DNA of 64,000 bases from Simmondsia chinensis (Eukaryota; Streptophyta; Magnoliopsida; Caryophyllales; Simmondsiaceae), in the NCBI GenBank assembly GCA_018398585.1, contig JAGTTD010000002.1, positions 28,574,186 to 28,638,185 of the forward strand, given 5' to 3'. Shown here one piece after another: positions 1 to 64,000 of this stretch; the first letter of the stretch is position 1; every line of letters begins with the position of its first letter. Position numbers and translations under genes: made by a program. Below the pieces are notes generated by a model. That model saw only the letters and a list, made by a program, of their open reading frames with translations. It did not search any database and was not told the origin of the DNA.

Positions 1-1757
1 CCCACTTTTCTGTCGCCATCAATGGCGAGCTCCAGGGTTTCTTCCCCTCCAGCCGAGGTGTACGTCAGGGTGACCCTCTCTCTCCTTATTTGTTTGTTAT
101 TGCTATGGAGGGTCTCCGAGGGCTGCTTCGTCGTGCTATCGATGACCCGCTATTTCTCTATCATTCGTGTTGCCATCGTACTGGGTTGACACACCTGTGC
201 TTTGCTGATGACCTGATGATCTTCTATCGAGGTGATACGGGTAGTGTATATGTTGTTCATGAGGTTTTAGACAGCTTTGCTGTAGTCTTGGGGCTGTCCT
301 CAAATGCAGCGAAGAGCTCAGTTTTTCTAGCAGGGGTGGACCCTGCGACTCAGCGGGACATTTTGGGTATTCTTGGTTTCAGCCTTTGAGGGGTGCCCCG
401 TTCGATATCTGGGAGTACCACTTATCAATTCTTGGCTGCGGTACGTTGACTCCAAGCCACTTCTGGATCGCATTCTCTCTCGTATACGGCTCTGGACCTC
501 CCGTTCTCTATCATATGCTGGTCGTCTATAGCTTATCCGATCTATTCTTTTCTCCACTCAGGTCTACTGGTCATCGATCTTCATGCTCCCGAAGATGATG
601 ATCAGGAAGATCAAGTCTACTCTTGCGGCTTTCCTTTGGAGAGGATCTTCGTTAGCCTCGGGAGGGGCGAAGGTTGCTTGAAGGCACCTGTGTTACCCTC
701 GGCGAGAGGGTGGTCTTGGGCTACATCGCATTGCTGAGTGGAACCAGGCTTGGATTATGAAGCATATTTGGTTCCTCCTTTCTAACCCTTCCTCGTTATG
801 GCTGCATTGGGTTCATTTGCACCGGCTTTGAGGGAGGAGCTTCCGGACTATTCGGGCGACGAGTTCTGCTTCTTGGTGCTAGCGTCAGATTTTATCGGTC
901 TGCCACCTTTGCTCTGGTGCGATCTATCATGTCATAGGTGATGGCCTTGACACTGCCCTTTGGACTGATTACTGGCTGCCATGTGGTCGTCTTTCGGAGC
1001 GCTTCTCTGCTCGACTGCTCACCTCCTCTGGACTTCATTGGGATTCTCGGGTCTCATCCATTATTAAGGGTGGTCGGTGGAGGTTTTCACAGGGTTGTTT
1101 GGCGCTCCGACCCATCTGGGACATGATTGATTTTCGCCCTCGGGCTGGTGTAGCGGACTCCATCCGGTGGTTGGGTGACCCCTAGGGGAACTTCACCACC
1201 AAGTTTGCTTGGGAGATGTTGTGGAGCAGGAGAGAGGAGGATACCATTCACCACCTTCTGTGGTTTCAGATGCATATTCTAAGGAACTCCTTTATTCTCT
1301 GACTCGCGTCTCGGCAGCAGCTTTGGACCCGGGACTGGCTTCAGCGTTTCAGAGCATTAGAGGTTCAGAGTGTTTATGTTCTCTGCGGTTCTACCGACGA
1401 GACTCATGATCACCTTTTCTTCACCCATTCCTTTTCTTCCTCGGTCTGGAGCTTTGTCACTTCAAGTACATCTATTGCTTGGCCTACCCTTCCTTGCGAC
1501 GATCTTGTCACTTAGGCTGCTCAGCATCTCAGGGGGCAAGAGATTGGCAGTATCATTGCTCGACTCTGCCTCTCTGCTATTGTGTATACTATCTGGTACG
1601 AGCGTAACCTTCGGGTTCAGCGATCTCAGTCCAGATCAGTTGCGGCCGTACGAGAGGAGATTACGGCTTTGGTCAGGAGCCGCTTACTTGCTGCTCTTTC
1701 GTTCAGAGGAGCTCATCGTCACACCTCCTTGCTTCGGCACTGGGGTTTTGCATCTTA
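1..1757 (+). pseudogene. LINE ORF2 fragment: reverse transcriptase and RT-linked zinc-binding domain
   Basis: The product would be the LINE endonuclease/reverse transcriptase that primes on nicked chromosomal DNA; only the C-terminal half is in the window. Frame 3 opens at the left edge with RT motif GVRQGDPLSPYLF (about 55-93), then the catalytic FADDLMIF box (about 200-223), here intact. The frame ends at 387-389 with TGA, and the homologous reading resumes in another frame. Further stops occur near 532, 680, 830 and 1182. The segment around 1200-1450 reads as the zf-RVT-like region (FTTKFAWEML, later DETHDHLFF). The matching part of the copy near 61.3-64 kb confirms the frame changes. It is non-functional as it stands. 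Confidence 0.88.
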
Positions 1758-1934
1758 ATTTCCTCTTTGTTCCCTTAGTTGTACTTTGGTTGTTTTTGTA
1801 TGGAATTTGTCCGGACTTTTTTGACGTTGTTTCATATTTGTAGGCTTCGGCCGTGTCCTGGGGTATGCTCCTTGTAGTTTGTACTATTTTTCATTTCATC
1901 TATATATTTCGCTGACTTACCAAAAAAAAAAATT
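1..1934 (+). mobile_element. L1-type LINE, 3' portion (copy L)
   Basis: This is the 3' part of a plant L1-type non-LTR retrotransposon; its 5' part lies off the window. It runs from the middle of the reverse transcriptase through an RT-linked zinc-binding region to a 3' poly(A) tail of about 11 A near 1922-1932. The same family is present inverted at 61257-64000, and the two copies align by eye over nearly their full shared length. The 5-bp duplications and LTRs of LTR elements are absent, as expected for a LINE. The target-site duplication cannot be read because the 5' end is missing. Confidence 0.92.
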
Positions 1935-13405: not shown

Positions 13406-14960
13406 ATGATCGGAAGGCCTAATACTCGATATGGAGGTGTAAATGCAGCTTCGGCTGCTAATGTTGATCCTAATGAAACAGTTGCAACGATTGTTGGCGG
13501 AAATTCTGCAACCAAACTTGAATTTATCACTCACACTTAGTTTAGGGCGCAAATGGATGAAATGTACAAGTTACAGATGGAGATGATGATGAATCAAATT
13601 CAACAAGTGCAAGATGAACAAGATCTGAGGATTTTAGATCAAATGTAACAACAAACTCTATATCTTAAGGACAAGATTGGTGGATTACAGGATCAAATTA
13701 ACCGAAAATTGGAACAAGATCAGAAGTTCACTGAGCAAGTGCAGCTGCAATCCTTGCGTTTTGAGGAAAAACTGATTGAGTTGCAAAACCAGGTTAACAA
13801 ACACGATGAATCTTCAATAAATGGAACTCTACGACCTGCTAGTCAGCTAATTCTTCCAGCAGAACTGCGGCAGCCACGAGTTCACATTGACAGTGTTAAA
13901 AGTCTGGACGGGAATCGTAGTGGATCTCCTTTGATTCAAGCTGAGGTTAGACCTCCAGATCATAATAGAACAATTGATACTCGACTTCCAGAGGTTGGTG
14001 CTATTGCATGGACTCATGATCAATCCATAGAACAAGCACATTCTCGATTATTTGGACAGAAGTCAAGCCTGAATACCAGACCTCCAGATGTGGTGTTACA
14101 TAATAGAAATTCATCTAATGAATTTGAGCATCCAAACAGGCCACCAGATCAGCATCATCAACGAAGAGCAGTGAGTAATGATGCTACATCCGGTAATAGG
14201 AGCAATGCTTTCAGACAACCTCAAGTGCAAATTGAACCTTTTGATGGCAAACGACCACAATCGTGGTTGAGAAGGTGTGTTCGATACTTTCATTTTTACA
14301 ACATGAGTAAAGCTGAAAAGGTAGAATTGGCAGCAGTGCATCTTCATGGAGACCATGAAGTATGGTTTTATAGGGTGTTAAAAAGCAATCCAAGTCTTTC
14401 TTGGGGCGAGTTCGTGGAAGAATTATGCGAACGCTATAGAGAGGACATTGGTGATGCTGTTGACAACTTTAAAACGGTGTATCAAACGACTACTGTGAGT
14501 GAATATATGAGAAGGTTTGAGAACTTACCAGCTAGCATGATAGCCACTTATCCACAAGCTACAGAAACATACAATGTCTCTAGCTTCATTAGTGGATTGA
14601 GACCAAGAATTAAGAACATGGTGAAGGCCATTGGGCCAAGGACTTTGTCTAAAGCTTATGCCAAGGCTAAGTTGATTGAAGCCACGGTTGTATCATCAAG
14701 TGACAAGAGTAAATTCAAAGGAGGAAATTCCAAACCTCAGCCCAGAGATTCATTTGCTTCCAAGGCAAGTCGTGCTGTTGATAAGAGGTCTTCAAGGCTT
14801 TGTTACAAATGCAGCTAACCTTATCAGCCTCAACATAAATGTAACTCCAAATTCCTGATGTCTAGAAGAGGTGCTTGAGTTGAAGTTCAATTTGACAGTG
14901 AAGAAATAGAGGCAGTAGAGGATAGTTCGGAGCAAGAGTCACAAGAAGAATTGTAGGAGG
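13406..14960 (+). pseudogene. Element B gag with CCHC-type knuckle
   Basis: The likely start is the ATG at 13406 (MIGRPNTRYGG), in frame with the rest. Stops at 13538 (TAG) and 13646 (TAA) break the N-terminal part. A glutamine-rich coiled-coil-like stretch follows. The capsid domain begins near 14220 (VQIEPFDGKRPQSWLRRCVRYF) and runs through ELCERYRED and TVSEYMRRFENLP to about 14660. The zinc knuckle (CYKC, then QHKC) is cut by TAA at 14816. The normal role is the capsid and RNA packaging. The following acidic stretch (EEIEAVEDSSEQESQEEL) links to protease. Confidence 0.88.
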
Positions 14961-14977
14961 ATGAAATTGATATTTCT

Positions 14978-16357
14978 ATGAAATCCTTGACAGGGAATGG
15001 AGCTCACAATACCATTCAAATTAAAGGAAAAGCTGGAAAGACTTCCATTACCATTCTTATTGACAGTGGGAGCACTCACAGCTTCGTTGATCCTAAATTA
15101 GTGAAGGAAGTGAGACACGAAGTGCTTAAGACTCATCCATTAGCTGTGACTGTGGCTAATGGAAATTCAATTCTCACTCAGAACAAGTGTCAGGCATTTC
15201 AATGGACTATGCAAGAACATCAGTTCACCTTTGATTTCAGAGTTCTTCCTTCGGGTGAATGTGACATGGTGCTCGGTGTTGATTGGATGAGATCCTTTAA
15301 TCAACTGATGTTCGACTTTGAAAAACTGATTGTTTCTTTTGAAGTTCATGGAACTAAAGTCACATTGCAAGGCATGGCTGACCATGCACAATTACAGTGG
15401 ATCAAAGGCAAAAACTTGCAAGGAAGATTTAAGAAGAGAGCCATTCAGTTGATTGGACAATTATTTGTTATTTCTCCTACTGAATTGGGATATGTTACCC
15501 AGCCTAAAGTGCGAGCCTTGATTGAAGAGTTAGAAGATATCTTTGAGCAGCCAAAGACTCTACCTCGTCACAGAAGTGTTGATCACGCTATTCATCTCAA
15601 AGCTAATTCAGATCTAGTCAAGATGAGGCCTTATCGGTATCCTCATGCTCAGAAGACAGAGATTGAGAAGCAAGGTGATGAATTGCTCAAGATGTGCTTC
15701 ATCAGACCTAGTCACAGTCCTTTTGCCTCTCCCATTATTCTGGTAAAGAAGAAGGATGGAACGGCAAGGATGTGCATTGATTACAGGAAGCTTAATTCTT
15801 TGACAGTGAAAGATAAGTTCCCTATTCCTGTCATAGATGATTTACTTGATGAGTTATATGAAGCACATTTCTTCACTAAACTTGATTTGAGGTAGGGATA
15901 CCATCAAATCAGAGTTCTGGATCCGGATATATATAAGACAGCTTTTCAGGCTCATCATGGACACTTCGAGTTTGTGGTTATGCCATTCGGTTTAACCAAC
16001 GCTCCAGCCACCTTTCAAGCCACTATGAATGAAGTTTTCAAGCCTTACCTGAGGAGAACAGTGCTAGTTTTCTTTAATGACATTTTGATATACAGTTCTT
16101 CCTTTGAGGATCATCTCAGGGATCTCAGGGAAGTGTTTACAATAATGCGCAATCATAAGTTCTTTGCCAAGCGGACCAAGTGTTATTTTGCTCAGAAACA
16201 ATTAGAATACTTGGGCCATGTTATCTCATGTGAAGGAGTTTCAACCGATCCTTCTAAGGTTCAAGCAATGCAAGAATGGCCTATCCCAGTATCACTGAAA
16301 AAATTAAGGGGATTTTTGGGACTGACCGGCTATTACAGGAAGTTCATTGCAAGATAG
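14978..16357 (+). pseudogene. Element B protease and reverse transcriptase
   Basis: The protease active site ITILIDSGSTHSFVD lies at about 15050-15095. RT motifs follow: PIILVKKKDGTARMCIDYRKLN (15733-15795), FFTKLDLR, then a TAG at 15893-15895 where homologs continue with [19 protein letters not shown] is at 15977 onward. The catalytic box reads [11 protein letters not shown] (about 16070) instead of FFDDILIYS, so one of the two metal-binding aspartates is Asn. A TAG ends the run at 16355-16357 just after YYRKFIAR. The enzyme would be inactive even without the stops. Confidence 0.9.
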
Positions 16358-37716: not shown

Positions 37717-38703
37717 CTGATCTTGGCCTCAAAACATGTGCTCGGGTGCCTTTCTAGACACCTCATGCCCGTATGATTCCCTGGGATCCTTCTAGATCCC
37801 CCACGTTCATTTATATATACTTGAGGCCTACCTTCTTTGATATGTGCTTCAAATAAGGGCCTCGAGCTTCAGTGCCACCTTTTTTGCAGCCTCCTGGGAA
37901 GTCCCTCAAGCTCAAGCCTTTCTACCCCTTCAACTGTCTTAAGAGGTTGATATCCCATAAGGGATTTGACTCTTTAATCAACTGGATTCAAGATGCCATT
38001 ATTTTAATATTTAAAGGCCTTACATTCCTCACGGATGGACATATGCGAGAAACACGTGACCGTTAGTCTCAAAATGGCATCGTCCCAACTCCCTCGAGTT
38101 TGGGGTGTAATCAAGAGTGTCCCCTTGATGCCATCTATATCTTGGCTTTAGTTGGAGCTTTTATTCCATCGAATCATATGATATCAGCATTAGTGCCATT
38201 ACTAACAGATCCAAACCTATCATCCTTATGTAGCACACTTTGCAATTCATTTCTCATCGTAAGAACTATAATATATCTTTTTCACCACTTTTCCAAACAA
38301 TATGAGATTTGTTATTACTTCCTTGCATCATTGGCTCCACACGGCCTTCAACCCTTGCCCAACAAACTCACAAGCCACATTGTTGCACCATTCATCAAGG
38401 ACAAAGAATTAATTTCAAGATGCCACGGTCCTAATGTTATATCAGGACATTGGTTTCAATCATACAATATGCCTTAATATTCGCTGCTAACCGACAAACC
38501 TATTTCTGCAAATAATTGTTTGTTTGCATTTGGAGAAACATTCCAATCTGCGTCGTTCAAATGCTCTAGTATAATAGGGTTATTTTAACAAACAAACCAA
38601 AAACTTTACACCCCTTAAGAATAATTTTTTTAAATGTAATGGAGTTAATCATGAAAACATCACAAAACATTAAACTACCAAACAATTCAATAATTATTAT
38701 CAA
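37717..38703. other. Unassigned spacer
   Basis: About 1 kb without a recognisable gene or element. One 125-codon open stretch at 38100-38477 (+) has no motif I know and no obvious partner elsewhere. The sequence near 37700-37860 could be further Ogre LTR. Confidence 0.4.
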
Positions 38704-38713
38704 AGATAAACAA
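38704..38713. repeat. Target-site duplication of SINE copy 1, left (AGATAAACAA)
   Basis: Repeated exactly at 38959-38968. Variable-length duplications of about 10-15 bp fit LINE-type target-primed insertion. Confidence 0.85.
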
Positions 38714-38958
38714 GGATTCATTTACGAAGCACTAAGGCCTCGGATCCCATTTGAACTCCGAAGTTGCTTGGGCGACAGTAGTACCAGGATAGGTGACCTC
38801 CTGGGAAGTCCTCGTGTTGCCAACCTTGCTAGGCTGGGGACCCTTGAAAACAGCCTCTCGCTAAGATTACACCCTGAAGGGATAAGGTTGCTTAGAATCA
38901 CCCCTCCTAGACGTTGCTTATGCGGGAGCCCTTGAGGCACTAGGTGTATTATTACTAG
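38714..38958 (+). mobile_element. 5S rRNA-headed SINE, copy 1 (245 bp)
   Basis: The head (38714 to about 38830) follows plant 5S rRNA from its first bases: GGAT at the start, AGCACTAAGGC, CGGATCCCAT, GAACTCCGAAGTT, GCTTGGGCGA and the C-box stretch GGTGACCTCCTGGGAAGTCC. The A-box region lacks six bases. The body (38831-38958) has plant SINE landmarks: AAACAGCCTCT, CCTGAAGGGATAAGG, GCGGGAGCCC and GGCACT. It is flanked by a 10-bp duplication AGATAAACAA (38704-38713 and 38959-38968). A Pol III-transcribed, LINE-mobilised element is the best reading. Confidence 0.85.
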
Positions 38959-38968
38959 AGATAAACAA

Positions 38969-39299
38969 AAACAATTCAATATTATTTTATAAATATGTAT
39001 ATATGCTTGGACATATGCTAGAGAGAATTATAGGCCACTTATTCATAGAGCTACAAATGCCAGCAGACTCATCACAACCTTAGTGGGAGAGGCTTGGTGT
39101 AATATCACAAAGATTCAATTGGGTCTGTTTGCTGGTTAGCGATTTAGTTTTTAGGACATGTTCAATTAAGGATTTAACTTGGTAGATTAAGACTTATAAA
39201 AAATGAATTATTCCATGTTCATATGTACAAATAATAGTTATAGTATCCTTAGTAAAATTTAAAATAAAAAAAAAAAGGTTATAGATATCAAGTCTATAC
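38969..39299. other. AT-rich spacer
   Basis: No gene or repeat recognised. It contains an A-rich run at 39266-39276. TATAC at 39295-39299 precedes the copia LTR and could be a target-site duplication, but its partner is not seen. Confidence 0.4.
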
Positions 39300-43560: not shown

Positions 43561-43727
43561 GCTCCAGGGAGATAATCGTAAGAATGTGAGTGCCTTTGAA
43601 GGAGGTGTGTAGCCCCCTTTTCATAGAGGAAGGATGTTTGTGGATGAGTATGTCTTTTTGGATAAGTATATTTAATTCTATCATTTGGTTACTTATCTAG
43701 ATAAAGTGGGCGAGTAACTTTATTTTT
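43561..43727. other. Short spacer between copia gag and minisatellite
   Basis: AT-rich, no gene. The segment GGATAAGT at 43657 resembles the left flank of the second minisatellite near 50718, so it may belong to the same repeat environment. Confidence 0.4.
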
Positions 43728-43985
43728 CTACTGGGTGAATTGCGTTGTTTTTCTACTTGGTGAATTGTGTTGTTTTTCTACTGGGTGAATTACGTTGTTT
43801 TTCTACCGGGTGAATTGCATTGTTTTTCTATTGGGCTAATTGTGTTATTTTTCTACTGGGCGAATTGTGTTTCTTTTACCCCTACTGGGCGAATTGTATC
43901 ACTTTTGCCCCTACTAGGCGAATTGTGTTGCTTTTGCCTCTACTGGGCGAGTTGATTTTGCACTTACTGGGCGAATTGTGTTACT
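43728..43985 (+). repeat. Minisatellite M1, 25-30 bp unit
   Basis: About nine imperfect units of the form CTACTGGGCGAATTGTGTTG followed by a T run and sometimes ACCCC. The same unit forms array M2 at 50743-51240. Confidence 0.93.
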
Positions 43986-50245: not shown

Positions 50246-50260
50246 TTGAGAAGAAGCTAA
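50246..50260. repeat. Target-site duplication of SINE copy 2, left (15 bp)
   Basis: TTGAGAAGAAGCTAA, repeated exactly at 50509-50523. Confidence 0.95.
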
Positions 50261-50508
50261 GAGGGTACCAACACGCCGTCATCAGATCCCATTAGATCTC
50301 CAAAGTTAAGCGTGCTTGGGCGAGAGCAGTACCAGGAACGGTGACCTCCTGGGAAGTCCTCATCCTCAGGTTAGGAGCACTCAAAAACAGCCTCTTTTTA
50401 GAGGTAATACCTTGAAGGGAGAAGGCTACATACAACCCCCCCCCCCAAAAGGCCCTGCTTAGGCGGGAGCCCTTGAGGCACTGGGTATGCTGCTATTTTT
50501 TGTTGCTG
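50261..50508 (+). mobile_element. 5S rRNA-headed SINE, copy 2 (248 bp)
   Basis: The head (50261 to about 50365) follows plant 5S rRNA: AGATCCCATTAGATCTCC, AAGTTAAGCGTGCTTGGGCG (A box complete), AGCAGTACCAGGAACGGTG and ACCTCCTGGGAAGTCCTC. The body from about 50375 has AAACAGCCTCT, CCTTGAAGGGAGAAGGCT, ACATACAACC, a run of C, GGCGGGAGCCC and GGCACTGGGTATG, ending with a TTG-containing tail. The 15-bp exact duplications prove a single insertion of the head-body unit. Length, order and body text match copy 1. Confidence 0.9.
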
Positions 50509-50523
50509 TTGAGAAGAAGCTAA

Positions 50524-50742
50524 ACTCAAGCTACTCTTAAAGATTATCAAGATCCCCTTTTCCCATTTTGTTTTTCTTCCCCTTTTTTCCTTCCTCTCTT
50601 TCCATATTTATAGCGTTGTAAGGGTGAGAGGATAGGTGTTCATCTTTTTCCTTGTAAGCTAAGTTTTCTTTTATTTATGTCAATCTTATTTTAGAAGTGC
50701 CTTAAAAGAAGAAAAAGTGGATAAGTTAGGTTTTTTGTCTTT
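50524..50742. other. Spacer between SINE and minisatellite M2
   Basis: AT/CT-rich, no gene recognised. Confidence 0.5.
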
Positions 50743-51240
50743 ATCTGGGCGAATTATATTAGTTTTTCTCTCTACTGGGCGAATTACATTGATTTTTCTC
50801 CTACTGGGCAATTGTTTTTTTTCACCCCTAATGGACGAATTGTGTTATTTTTTACCTTAACTAAGCGAATTGTGTTTTTTAATCTCTACTGAATGAATTA
50901 TGTTGTTTTTTATCACTATTCGGCGAATTACGTTAATTTTTCTTCTACAAGGTGAATTGTTTTATTTTTTATCCCTACTGGACGAATTACGTTGATTTTT
51001 CTCCTACTGGGTGAATTGTGTTGTTTTTTACCCCTACTAGGCGAATTATGTTATTTTTTATCCATATTGGGCGAATTACAATTGATTCTTTCTCTTACTG
51101 GGCGGATCGTGTTGTTTTTTTACCCCTACTAGACAAATTGTGTTATTTTTTTATCCCTACTGAGTGAATTAAGTTGTTTTTTATCCCCACTTGGTGAATT
51201 GTGTTTTTTTTACCTCTACTGGGCGAATTGCATTAACTTT
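50743..51240 (+). repeat. Minisatellite M2, ~30 bp unit
   Basis: About 16 imperfect units of CTACTGGGCGAATTGTGTTG plus a T run and ACCCC. Same family as M1, 7 kb to the left. Confidence 0.95.
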
Positions 51241-51360
51241 TGGCTTTTTTTTTCTGAATCACAAACATATTAGCCCTCACTTTTCAAACTTATTTTGTCC
51301 GTTTTGTTTGGAAAGTGTCGACTTATTATTGTTCCCTCTTTTTTTTTTCTTTTGTTCCCT

Positions 51361-53095: not shown

Positions 53096-54512
53096 TGGCG
53101 GGCATTCAATGTTGCTCCAAGTGTACAAAATTAGTTATGAGTATAATTTTATAAGATTACTTACAAGTCATAGCCTCCAGTGTATAAATTCATTTATAAC
53201 TCAAATTTCTACACTGGTGGGCGTTTAACGTGGCCCCCAATGTATAAGATCATTTATAACTCAAATCTCTACACTGGTGGGTATTTAATGTAGCCCCCAG
53301 TGTATAAAATTATTTATAACTCAAATCTCTAAATTGGTGGGCATTTAACATGGCCCCCAGTGTATAAAATTACTTATAACTTCAATTTTATAAATTAACT
53401 TATAACCCCGATTTCTACATTGGTGGGCGTTTAACATAGCCCCTAATGTATAAGATCACATATACTCCAATTTCTACACTGGTGGGCTTTTAACGTAGCC
53501 CCTAGTGTATAAAATCATTTAACTTAAATCTCTACACTGGTGGGTTTTTAACGTAGCGCCCAGTATATAAAATTACTTATAACTCAACTTTTATAAATTT
53601 ACTTATAATCCCAATTTCTACACTGGTGGGCGTTTAACATAGCCTCAATGTATAAAATTACTTATAACTCCAATTTCTACACTAGTGGACGTTCAACATA
53701 GCCCCTAGTTTATAATATCATTTATAACTCAAATCTCTACACTGGTGATTTTTTGACATAGTCCCCAGTGTGTAAAATCACTTATCACTCCAATTTCTAC
53801 ACTGGTGGGCATTTAACGTAGCCCCTAGGGTATAAAAGCACTTATAACTCTAATTTTATAAATTTACTTATAACCCCAATTTCTATACTGGTGGGCGTTT
53901 AATGTGGCTCCCAATGTATAAAATCATTTATAACTTTACACTAGTGGGCATTTAACGTAATAACTCCAATTTCTACACTGGTGGGCATTTAACGTAGCCC
54001 CCAGTGTATAAAATCACTTATAATTCCAATTTTATAAATTTACTTATAACTCCAATTTCTACACTGGTCGGCGTTTAACATAACCCCCCCGTGTATAAAA
54101 TCACTTATAACTCCAATTTCTACATTGGAGATTGTTTAGTGTAGCCTCCAGTGTGTAAAATTATTTACAACTCAAATTTCTACACTAGTGAGCGTTTAAC
54201 GTAACTCCCAGTGTATAAAATCACGTATAACTCTAATTTCTACATTGGTAGGCATTTAACATAGCCCCCAGTATATAAAATTATTTATAACTCAATTCTC
54301 TACTCTGGTGGGTGTTTAACGTAGCTCTTAGTGTATAAAAGCACTTATAACTCTAATTTTGTAAATTTACCTATAACTGCAATTTCTACACTGCTGTTTA
54401 ACGTAGCCCCTAGTGTATAAAATCACTTATAACTCCAATTTCTACACTGATGGACGTTTAACGTAGCCCCCAGTGTATAAAATCACTTATAACTCTAATT
54501 TTTACACTGGTG
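53096..54512 (+). repeat. Minisatellite M3, ~60 bp unit
   Basis: About 23 imperfect units containing TTTCTACACTGGTGGGCGTT, TAACGTAGCCCCCAGTG and TATAAAATCACTTATAACTC. Some units carry an extra ~22-base insert (TTTTATAAATTTACTTATAA). 1.4 kb in all. Confidence 0.95.
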
Positions 54513-57764: not shown

Positions 57765-58395
57765 GAATGAATAGTTATACCTTTAACAGGTGTATGATGG
57801 CATCTTTTTAACAGGTGAAGGGTTGTATCTTTGATTGACAGTAGATTATTGCACCATTAACAGGTGAACGATGATATTTTTGAATAGGTGATCACATGTA
57901 ATTATACCCTTAATAGGTAAGTGATGGTATTTTTATACAGGTGAATGATTGTATCTTTAATATGTGAAAATATGGAGTTGTACCTTTGATAAGTGAATGG
58001 TTGTATTTTTATACAGGTGAATGATTGTATCTTTAATAAGTGAAAATATGTAGTTGCACCTTTGACAGGCGAATGGGTGTATTTGTATACAGGTCAATGA
58101 TTGCATTTTTAATAAGTGAAAATACATAGTTGTACCTTTGACAGGTGAATGGCTGTACCTTTGATTGGTAAAAATATGTAGTTGCACCTTTAACAGGTGG
58201 TTGCACCTTTGATAGATAAAAATATGTAGTTGCACCTTTAATAGGTGAATGGTTGCACCTTTGATAGGTGAAAATATGTAGTTGCAAGTTTAACAGGTGA
58301 ATGGTTGCATCTTTGATAGGTGAAAATATACAGTTGCACCTTTAACAGGTGAATGGTTACACCTTTGATAGGTGAAAATATGTAGTTGTACCTTC
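57765..58395 (-). repeat. Minisatellite M4, ~50 bp composite unit
   Basis: About 12 composite units alternate AATGGTTGCACCTTTGATAG, GTGAAAATATGTAGTTG and CACCTTTAACAGGTG. It lies between the Tat pol stop (58652) and the antisense ORF end (57700), thus in the 3' UTR of the minus-strand element. Confidence 0.93.
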
Positions 58396-60420: not shown

Positions 60421-61256
60421 CTTTAGGACAAAGGGAATTACCTTGTAATAGTAATTTCCTTCATTAGTAATGAATGATATCTTCTCCTCATCTTGCAGGT
60501 CCATTTTTATCTGGTGATAGCCCGAGAAGGCAACCATGAAACTAAATAACTCATTTCCCCCCATAGAGTCCACCAATTGGTCAATCTTGGGGAGGGGGTA
60601 GGAGTCTTTTGGGCAAATTTGTTCAGATCTGTGAAATTGATACACATTCACCAGGTTCCATTTGGTTTCTTCGTGAGCACTACATTGGCCAACCATTCGA
60701 GATATCTAACCTTTCTTATAAATCCTGACCACAGCAGTTTGTTTACCTCTATTTTGATGGCTTCCCCTCTTTCAGCATAAAAGCTTCTTTTCTTTAGTTT
60801 TATAAGGGAAGTTCCTGCTAGAACATTTAATTTATGAACCATAACGTTCCCATTAATTCATGTCATCTCATCAGTGTTCTATGCAAAGACATCTCGGTAT
60901 TGCTTTAATAACAAAGCCAATTCTTTCTTTATTTCCCCTTATAACCAATACCCCACTTTTGCGATTTTTCCTTCCTCCACTTCTATCTCCTCTAACTTTC
61001 CCCAGTCTTGGTCTGAAATTTTGGACTTGCTTTCCCTGGAAAGGCTAAATTCTCCTTTATCTACCTCGAATGTGACTTCACAACTGTTACTTTTTAGTGA
61101 AGCATAATAGCATTTACGAGCTACTTTTTGGTTTCCTTGAATGGCCGTTATTTCTCCATTGTTCGATTCAAATTCCATTAATAGGTGATAGGTAGAGATT
61201 ACGGCTCATATGCAACTTAAAGCAGGTCAACCAAGTATTACATTATAAGAGGAGGG
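60373..61256 (-). pseudogene. Tat element 3 protease end and N-terminal half of RT
   Basis: The protease end reads SSYNVILG then (after a TGA) PALSC and, in frame, AVISTYHLLMEFESNNGEI and GNQKVARKCYYASLK (60939-61178). RT follows with FIRKVRYLEWLANVVLTKKPNGTW (60648-60842), YPLPKIDQLVDSMGG, GYHQIKMD and ATYQQLVNKVF (60373-60600). It stops there: the segment with the YVDD active site and the RT-RNase H connection are deleted. The LINE is inserted at SSYNVILG, 61256/61257. Confidence 0.85.
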
Positions 61257-64000
61257 TAGATTTTTTTTTTTTTTTTTTTTTGCGAAATATATAGATGAAA
61301 AGAAAAATAGTACAAGCTACAGGGGCATACCCCAAGACACGGCCGAAGCCTACAAATATGAAACAATGTCAAAAGAGGTCCAGACAAAGTCCATACAAAA
61401 AACAACCAAACTACAACTAAGGGAACAAAGAAGAAACTAAGTCTTAAAACCCCAGTGCCAAAGCAAGGAGGTGTGATGATGAGCTCCTCCGAACGAAGAA
61501 GCAGCAAGCAAGCGGCTCCTGACCAAACCCGCAATCTCCTCTCGTACGGCCACAACTGATCTGGGCTAAGAACGCTGAACCCAAAGGTTACGCTCGTACC
61601 AGATAGTATACACAGTCGCAGAGAGGCAGAGTCGAGCAATGATACTGCCAATCTCTCACCCCCTGAGATGCTGAGCAGCCCAAGTGACAAGATCGTCCTA
61701 AGGAAGGGTAGGCCAAGCGATTGATGTACTCGGAGTGACGGAGCACCAGACCAAGGGGGAAAAGGAACAGGAGAAGAAAAGGTGCTCATGAGTCTCGTTA
61801 GTAGAATCGCAGAGAACACAAACACTCTGAACCTCTAGTGCTCTGAAACGCCGAAGTCGATCCCGAGTCTAAAGTCTCTACCGAGAAGCGAGCCAGAGAA
61901 TGAAGGAGTGCCTCGGTATATGCATCTGAAACCACAGAAGATGATGAATGGTATCCTCCTCTCTCCTACTCCGCAACATCTCCCAAGTGGACTTGGTGGT
62001 GAAGTTCCCCAAGGGGGTCACCCAACCACCGGATGGAGTCCGCTACACCAGCCCGGGGGCTAAAATCAATCGTGTCCCAGATGGGTCAGAGCTCCAAACA
62101 ACCCTGTGGAAATCTCCACAGACCACCCTCAATAATGGATGAGACCCGAGAATCCCAATGAAGTCCAGAGGAGGTGAGCAGTCGAGCAAGGAAGCGCTCC
62201 GAAAGACGACCACATGGCAGCCTGTAATTAGTCCAAAGGGCAGTGTCAAGGCCATCACCTATGACATGATAGATCACACTAGAGCAGAGGCGGCGGACCG
62301 ATAAAATCTGACGCCAGCACAAAGAAGCAGAACTCGTCGCCTGAATAGTCCAGAAGCTCCTCCCTCGAAGCCAGTTCAGATGAATCCAACGCGGCCATAA
62401 TGAGGAAGGGTTAGAAAGGAGGAACCAGATATGCTACATAATCGAAGCCTGGTTCCACTCAGCAAGGCGACGGAGCCCAAGACCACCCTCCCGCCAAGGG
62501 TAACACAAATGCCTCCAAGCAACCTTCGCCCCTCCCGGGGCCAACAAAGATCCTCTCCAAAGGAACACCGCAAGAGTCGACTCAATCTTCCTGATCATCG
62601 TCTTCAGGAGCATGAAGATCAATGACCAGTAGACCTGAGTGGCGAAAAGAACAGATCAGATAAGCTGCGGACGACCAACATATGATAGAGAATGGGAGGT
62701 CCAGAGCCGTATACGAGAGAGAATGCGATCCAGCAGTGGCTTGCAGTCAATGTACCGCAGCCGAGAAGTGATAAGTGGTACTCCCAGATATCGAACTGGG
62801 CACTGCCCAAGGTTGAAACCCAGAACACCCAAAATGTCCCGCTGAGTCGCAGAGTCCACCCCTGCTAGAAAAACTGAGCTCTTCGCTGCATTCGAGGACA
62901 GCCCCAAGAGTACAGCAAAGCGGTCTAAAACCTCACGAACAACAGATACACTACCCATATCACCCCAACAGAAGATCATCAGGTCATCAGTAAAACACAT
63001 GTGTGTCAACCCAGTACGACGACAACACGGATGATAGCGAAAACACGGGTCATCGATAGCACGGCGAAGCAACGCTCGGAGACCCTCCATAGCGATAACA
63101 AACAAATAAGGAGAGAGAGGGTCACCCTGACGTACACCTCGACTGGAGTGGAAGAACCCCTGAAGTTCACCATTGATGGCGACGAAAAAGCGGGCTGTAG
63201 AGAGGCACTCACGGATCCAACCAATCATGACCTCAGGAATCCCCATACTCCTCATACTAGCTAGAATAAAATCCCATCGAACAGTGTCAAAAGCCTTACG
63301 GATATTGACCTTCAGTGCACAACGAGGCGAGACCTGAAGGTGATAACCGCGCATCAACTCCTGTGTCAAAAGGATGCTGTCAGAGATCCGAAAACCCGGA
63401 ATAAACGTTGTCTGAGCATCGCCAATCAACCCGGGAAGGACACCCTTCAACCTGTTTGCAATGATCTTAGTGATACACTTATAGATCACATTACAACAAG
63501 AGATAGGGCGGAAGTCACCAAAGGTGGAGGGAGTCTCCACCTTAGGCACAAGACATATCTTGGTGGTGTTCAGGGCACCCAGCATGCGCCCTAAGATGAA
63601 GAAAGACTGCGCGGCCCTAATCACTGCTCCTCTGACCACCTCCCAAGCCCTCTTAAAAAAAAGGGAAGTGTAACCATCAGGCCCCAGGGCCCTGTCATCA
63701 TCTATGAAAAAGAGAGCATCACGAACCTCAGCTACAGAGATCGTGGAGATAAGCGAGCGAGCCTGATCCTCAGAAATACGAGCCTCAAAAATGTCAGAAA
63801 CATCCTCAATCAGCAGACCACCCGGCTCAGTCAACAAATCCTGGAAGAAAGTAACCCCGGCACGAGAGATCAACTGCGGATTATATGTCCTCTCACCATC
63901 AGAACCAACAATTGATGAGATCCGATTCCGGGCCTGCCGATGGAGAACAGACCGATGAAAGAACCGAGTGCTCTGATCCCCGAGCAAAAGCCACTGAATA
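61257..64000 (-). mobile_element. L1-type LINE, 3' portion (copy R)
   Basis: Minus-strand LINE with a poly(A) tail (T run at 61261-61280). It extends beyond the right window edge. Same family as copy L at 1-1934. It interrupts the protease end of Tat element 3. The target-site duplication is not readable because the 5' end is outside. Confidence 0.92.
61700..64000 (-). pseudogene. LINE ORF2 fragment: reverse transcriptase and zinc-binding domain
   Basis: An uninterrupted stretch of 443 codons (62656-63987) carries GDQSTRFFHRSVLHRQARN, GPDGYTSLFFKRAWEVV, FRPISCCNVIYKCITKIIANRL and GVRQGDPLSPYLF. The first catalytic Asp motif reads KVNIRKAFDTV (usual KVDxxKAFD) and the second box reads FTDDLMIF (usual FADD). 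Downstream parts (61800-62650) continue in other frames with WEMLRS-like zinc-binding sequence. The Asp-to-Asn change predicts an inactive enzyme. Confidence 0.9.

Follow-up and report, generated by a model that had tools for sequence, protein, structure and literature searches.

The region at positions 50246-50523 of the window, as we call the whole 64,000-nucleotide stretch of Simmondsia chinensis DNA analyzed here, raises the question of whether a 5S rRNA-like sequence and the SINE-like sequence that follows it constitute one mobile element and, if so, how such a combination came about. Taken as a whole, the data are best explained by a family of 5S rRNA-headed (SINE3-type) non-autonomous retrotransposons; we put the probability of this reading at approximately 90%. 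From the earlier note on this DNA, the 5S-headed SINE with head and body mobile as one has held, and the proposed head swap as its origin now appears unlikely.

Structure of SINE copy 1

Copy 1 occupies positions 50261-50508 of the plus strand and is flanked by TTGAGAAGAAGCTAA on both sides, at 50246-50260 and at 50509-50523. The 15-bp target-site duplication claimed for it was confirmed as exact over its entire length. When 30x30-base pairs were drawn at random from the window, none of 20,000 shared 15 bp, a number in which pairs less than 2 kb apart were counted although skipped. The majority of family copies begin approximately 6 nt upstream of the start assigned to copy 1 (ACCAAAGAGGG...). 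This means that the end of the 5′ duplication (CTAA) overlaps sequence that belongs to the element in other copies, and the true duplication of copy 1 may be nearer 11 bp.

The family has two subfamilies, designated S1 and S2, and copy 1 belongs to S1 (with flanking bases counted, it is 85.5% identical to the S1 majority). Its 5S rRNA-derived head (50261-50361) contains an A box, an IE and a C box and is followed by a linker (50362-50382) and by the body and tail (50383-50508), where AAACAGCCTCT, GGCGGGAGCCC and GGCACTGGGTATG appear in this order before a T-rich end. The 5S likeness of the head was borne out by a match to Rfam RF00001 at 50255-50372 (54.1 bits with a cut-off of 38, E 1.6e-8). 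The A box, said to be intact, agrees with a generic plant 5S rRNA sequence at 15/15 positions, the IE at 6/6 and the C box at 16/18, the box limits being approximate. Judged by sequence, the element carries internal Pol III promoter motifs at its 5′ end. Nothing like the tRNA-type head of SINE2 elements, with its A and B boxes, was found; the head matches 5S, and ARAGORN detected no tRNA genes in the 64-kb window.

Two details of the first description required correction. The head had been called near-complete 5S, which overstates its 5′ end: among the 26 positions that open the S1 majority sequence, 11 agree with the host 5S gene, a score reached by 1050 of 20,000 shuffles, so that this part is barely 5S-like. 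Over its first 107 positions the S1 majority head agrees with host 5S at 87. A TTG tail had also been ascribed to copy 1; the S1 tail is GTTGC followed by a T run, and (TTG)n is the tail of S2. Five T residues inside the body (50395-50399, plus strand) form a likely Pol III terminator that would probably stop transcription early, making copy 1 a probably poor source copy. RNA folds of heads and bodies were no stronger than those of shuffled sequences (z -0.27, -0.82, 0.08 and 1.32), and we make no claim on structure.

A second copy in the window

Comparison of the copy 1 unit with the rest of the window revealed a diverged second copy, absent from the earlier note, in which head and body are likewise joined (72.7% identity to 38740-38945, E 9e-30 for the within-window match). 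Copy 2, of subfamily S2, lies on the plus strand at 38714-38958 and starts with GGAT at 5S +1. It is flanked by a 10-bp duplication, AGATAAACAA, at 38704-38713 and 38959-38968; at least 10 bp were shared in 17 of 20,000 random 30x30 draws. Just outside this duplication is a 13-bp repeat, AAACAATTCAATA, at 38680-38692 and 38969-38981. As this repeat also brackets copy 2, the 10-bp duplication is less certain; the simplest reading of the 13-bp repeat is that of an older local one. The A box of copy 2 is broken by the loss of 6 nt, and its Rfam score of 34.6 is below the cut-off of 38. No similarity was detected between the 500-bp flanks of copies 1 and 2 at E 0.01, indicating two separate insertions. 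A third candidate near 37890 had an nhmmer E value of 0.25 and was not counted.

The family in the host genome

The host genome (831,394,711 bases in 35 contigs) was searched with both copies. Copy 1 gave 6795 first-look candidates, the best 40 of which were scored; all 41 places among the matches listed span head and body, comprising the query itself, 39 at 84-87% identity and one at 75% adjoining another copy. Copy 2 gave 4902 first-look candidates, and here the best 40 were also scored. Of the 42 places listed, 40 carry the joined unit, 39 at 80-84% identity; the remaining two are short fragments beside one of these 40, from the head (49 bp) and from the tail (42 bp). The scored candidates are thus the best of thousands, the two candidate sets may overlap, and 6795 and 4902 are not copy numbers. 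At the place with fragments (G000:C6:28473575-28473930), the tail and head pieces flank a joined S2 copy in the same orientation, in a partial-tandem-like arrangement; the head piece there demonstrates that pieces of the head can occur apart.

Duplications were examined in 58 copies (39 of S1, the complete set besides the query, and 19 of S2, from a set of 39 besides the query), with controls obtained by swapping 5′ and 3′ flanks between loci. Duplications of at least 10 bp were found in 32 of the 58 copies and in 11 of 1824 flank-swapped controls. For S1 the figures were 19/39 versus 9/1482, and for S2 13/19 versus 2/342; 12/39 S1 and 3/19 S2 copies had no duplication of at least 7 bp. What was found is therefore a short, dispersed, multicopy unit of approximately 230-270 bp with target-site duplications, as is characteristic of SINEs.

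The proposal that head and body move as one agrees with these data: both parts are present in the 40 + 40 best scored candidates (queries included), and the duplications bracket the whole unit. A genome search and a duplication count had been suggested for this purpose, and neither a scarcity of joined copies nor separate duplications around the two parts emerged. A 5S pseudogene lying by chance beside a SINE or LINE tail would account for the 5S likeness itself and nothing else; faced with so many joined and jointly bracketed units, we consider it extremely improbable. At one locus (L019, G000:C35:1183288-1183749) two SINE copies lie 3 bp apart in opposite orientation.

Position of the 5′ end

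The 5′ end of the family lies at the distance expected of 5S +1. Where an S1 copy has a duplication of at least 10 bp (19 copies), this ends at a median of 49 nt before the A box (47-51 nt in 17 of the 19, with extremes of 42 and 53), and in the host 5S gene the distance from +1 to the A box is 49 nt. Among the 13 S2 copies with duplications of that length, nine have the start of GGATCCCAT 28-29 nt downstream of the duplication and the remaining four have it 26-35 nt downstream; the corresponding distance in host 5S is 29 nt. The duplication search admitted 5′ ends within a 26-nt range around the query start and made no use of the 5S distance. Pol III would be expected to transcribe the element from the A box, IE and C box inside the 5S-derived head, with a start identical to that of the 5S transcript.

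Subfamilies and host 5S genes

In S2 the head covers 5S from +1 to about position 114 and the tail is (TTG)n, while S1 copies are diverged over their first 26 nt and end in a T run. With flanking bases counted, the rows of the S1 alignment (41, both window copies among them) had a median identity of 87.5% to their majority sequence, and those of the S2 alignment (20 rows) one of 88.4%. Both heads can be aligned with host 5S genes, which, together with the RF00001 match, identifies them as 5S rRNA-derived heads of the SINE3 kind. For this comparison 15 of 47 listed host genes were read, taken from both arrays on contig C8 and from C29. The two arrays on C8 (L048-L058 and L060) have units of approximately 420-445 bp. 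All the genes read contain CTCTTGG, at a place where both the Rfam consensus and typical plant 5S have a C.

The S1 and S2 majority sequences share ACCAGGATGGGTGACCTCCTGGG, where the 15 host 5S genes read have ACTAAGATGGGTGACCTCTTGG. At two of the three differing sites it is the host genes that depart from the Rfam consensus and the SINE that follows it; at the third, ACC in the SINE versus ACT in the host, the SINE departs from the consensus and the host genes follow it. This pattern suggests that the head predates a change in the host 5S genes and acquired one change of its own, or else that it came from another source. To judge from these sites, the head has apparently not followed the host 5S gene, unlike Cassandra as reported (PMC10853983), and the borrowed promoter would here not track the host gene.

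Such another source could be Cassandra itself, an LTR element with a 5S promoter, in which case the head would not derive directly from 5S rRNA. Cassandra is reported to carry a 5S core of approximately 70 bp with A box, IE and C box, exceeding 100 nt in some species (PMC10853983), and the ACC base common to S1 and S2 is absent from the 15 host genes read. Against this, the S2 head starts directly at the duplication and covers 5S from +1 to about position 114, and the 500-bp flanks of the two window copies are unrelated. Cassandra would have its 5S region inside paired LTRs; here the 5S part lies at the 5′ end of the element. We therefore regard a Cassandra source as improbable. The SINE and Cassandra are alike as plant mobile elements that borrowed a 5S promoter. 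They differ in that the 5S part of Cassandra is described as located in the middle of the LTR and mirroring changes of the host 5S gene (PMC10853983), whereas in the SINE it adjoins the duplication and its C-box region differs from the host 5S genes read.

Bodies without heads

Twenty-six loci (84,302 bases), a non-random set since each was chosen for holding a SINE, were scanned for separate head and body sequences. Besides the 26 primary copies, they contained 5 further full copies and 18 body-only matches, some of the latter weak or merely 54-57 bp long. No head-only matches were found in these SINE-bearing loci at E 1e-3. Thirteen of the 18 body-only matches were tested for duplications, and five that were short, weak or at a locus end were left out. 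Duplications of 14-18 bp, two exact and two with one mismatch, were present in 4/13, versus 1/156 swaps.

In 7 of the 18 headless matches, picked for reaching that far, the SINE likeness begins near CAGGTTGGGGG, an edge close to the end of 5S-derived sequence in S2. Two of the four duplication-bearing headless copies (L003 and L070) start near this common edge and the remaining pair begins deeper in the body; among the seven aligned examples, it is for L003 and L070 only that a duplication fixes the 5′ end. Some headless copies are probably truncated SINE copies, and others, of the CGGACACAGCC type, look like a separate lineage.

These headless bodies bear on the proposed head swap, according to which an older tRNA-headed SINE with the same body exchanged its tRNA head for a 5S one. 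The body described here probably resembles the 3′ part of tRNA-headed plant SINEs. A 37-bp 3′ Angio-domain has been reported from many angiosperm SINEs (PMC9033089), which would fit such a swap as well. No tRNA-headed relative was nevertheless seen: ARAGORN detected no tRNA in the window, and a B-box motif, one mismatch being allowed, was absent upstream of all 17 headless bodies examined. The 17 upstream sequences had just two short matches (26 and 17 bp) in common. With the body also occurring alone, a head swap appears unlikely. The presence of the body by itself, with its own duplication in four of the 13 tested, points to the joining of 5S RNA to a tail unit that was already mobile, and with moderate confidence we favor fusion of 5S rRNA to the 5′ edge of this unit over the swap.

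A possible origin

The mechanism that we propose for the 5S-headed SINE draws on the anatomy of the element and on established SINE biology as regards Pol III transcription, tail recognition and target-primed insertion. The 3′ body would be a tail unit that is also mobile by itself and most likely represents the 3′ terminus of an RTE-clade LINE. The reverse transcriptase of that LINE would recognize the tail and copy the RNA into new sites by target priming, producing duplications of 10-21 bp. The family most likely originated in a template switch during reverse transcription that linked 5S rRNA to the tail unit at its 5′ edge, and would then have split into S2, with its (TTG)n tail, and S1, with its T-run tail. 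It is the (TTG)n tail that makes an RTE element the favored partner of S2.

The full account, which we advance tentatively and with slightly more doubt than confidence, is that this is the first 5S-headed SINE lineage of plants, formed by fusion of 5S rRNA to the 5′ edge of an RTE tail unit which spreads without a head as well. The (TTG)n tail would later have given way to a T run, possibly with a new LINE partner, and an older 5S promoter since lost from the host 5S genes would have been retained. A single genome that carries this tail unit by itself and also a tail of the same kind behind a 5S head offers a natural experiment on the birth of a SINE.

Relation to known elements

We take the body to be probably of the same kind as the 3′ bodies of Angio-domain SINEs, TS and Au. 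In flowering plants, (TTG)n or (TTGATG)n is reported as the terminus of RTE LINEs, and the tobacco TS SINE is reported to have approximately 100 nt in common with a potato RTE LINE; the partner of Au is called unidentified in the same source (PMC3747384). By their tails, as described there, S2 resembles TS, with (TTG)n, and S1 resembles Au, with a short T run.

SINE3 elements have been reported from vertebrates and some insects (PMC7245038) and from Aspergillus (PMC5063351), and gains of 5S-type promoters are cited for SINEs in animals (PMC10853983). The present family shares with SINE3, as described, a 5S-derived head with A box, IE and C box, a non-LTR tail and short duplications (PMC7245038). 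One SINE3 element, HaSE3, seems to use an RTE LINE (PMC7245038), and an RTE partner is putative here. The host differs in being a plant, which its 5S sequence, the SINE body and the Ty3-type and non-LTR-like reading frames of the window also suggest; the likeness to SINE3 noted here is one of head and structure. The head identity of 87/107 compares with reported values of 50-65% for Aspergillus SINE3 (PMC5063351) and of approximately 63% between the Plutella SINE3 head and Bombyx 5S (PMC8010984), both measured otherwise.

A search of part of the published literature found no report of a 5S-headed plant SINE. Scans of viral and genome contigs and similarity searches against plasmids and phages, collections that are not plant-based, found nothing. 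The published description of plant SINEs is that of tRNA-derived elements (PMC9033089). One annotation tool for plants includes a SINE-Finder step that seeks tRNA-type A and B boxes, although it also sorts candidates against a 5S library (PMC8825457). Families with 5S heads could for these reasons be under-found. Cassandra has been suggested to stem from a SINE3 insertion (PMC10886601), and the family described here offers a likely plant SINE3 with which that suggestion can be compared.

Other features of the window

Two arrays of a similar tandem repeat of approximately 25-30 bp (CTACTGGGCGAATTGTGTTG with T runs) are located about 7 kb apart at 43707-43985 and 50731-51241, the latter starting approximately 200 bp downstream of SINE copy 1. 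Further tandem arrays are present at 53169-54509, with a unit of approximately 60 bp and higher-order periods, and at 57915-58394, with periods of approximately 24, 52, 76 and 104 bp. The open reading frames at 1370-1843 (plus strand) and 61238-61825 (minus strand) have similar translations in opposite orientation and are probably part of one repeat; the latter had no Pfam match. Ty3-type gag and protease reading frames (Pfam Ty3_capsid and RVP_2) were found at 13709-15895, and a reverse transcriptase reading frame that looks non-LTR (Pfam RVT_1) at 62656-63987.
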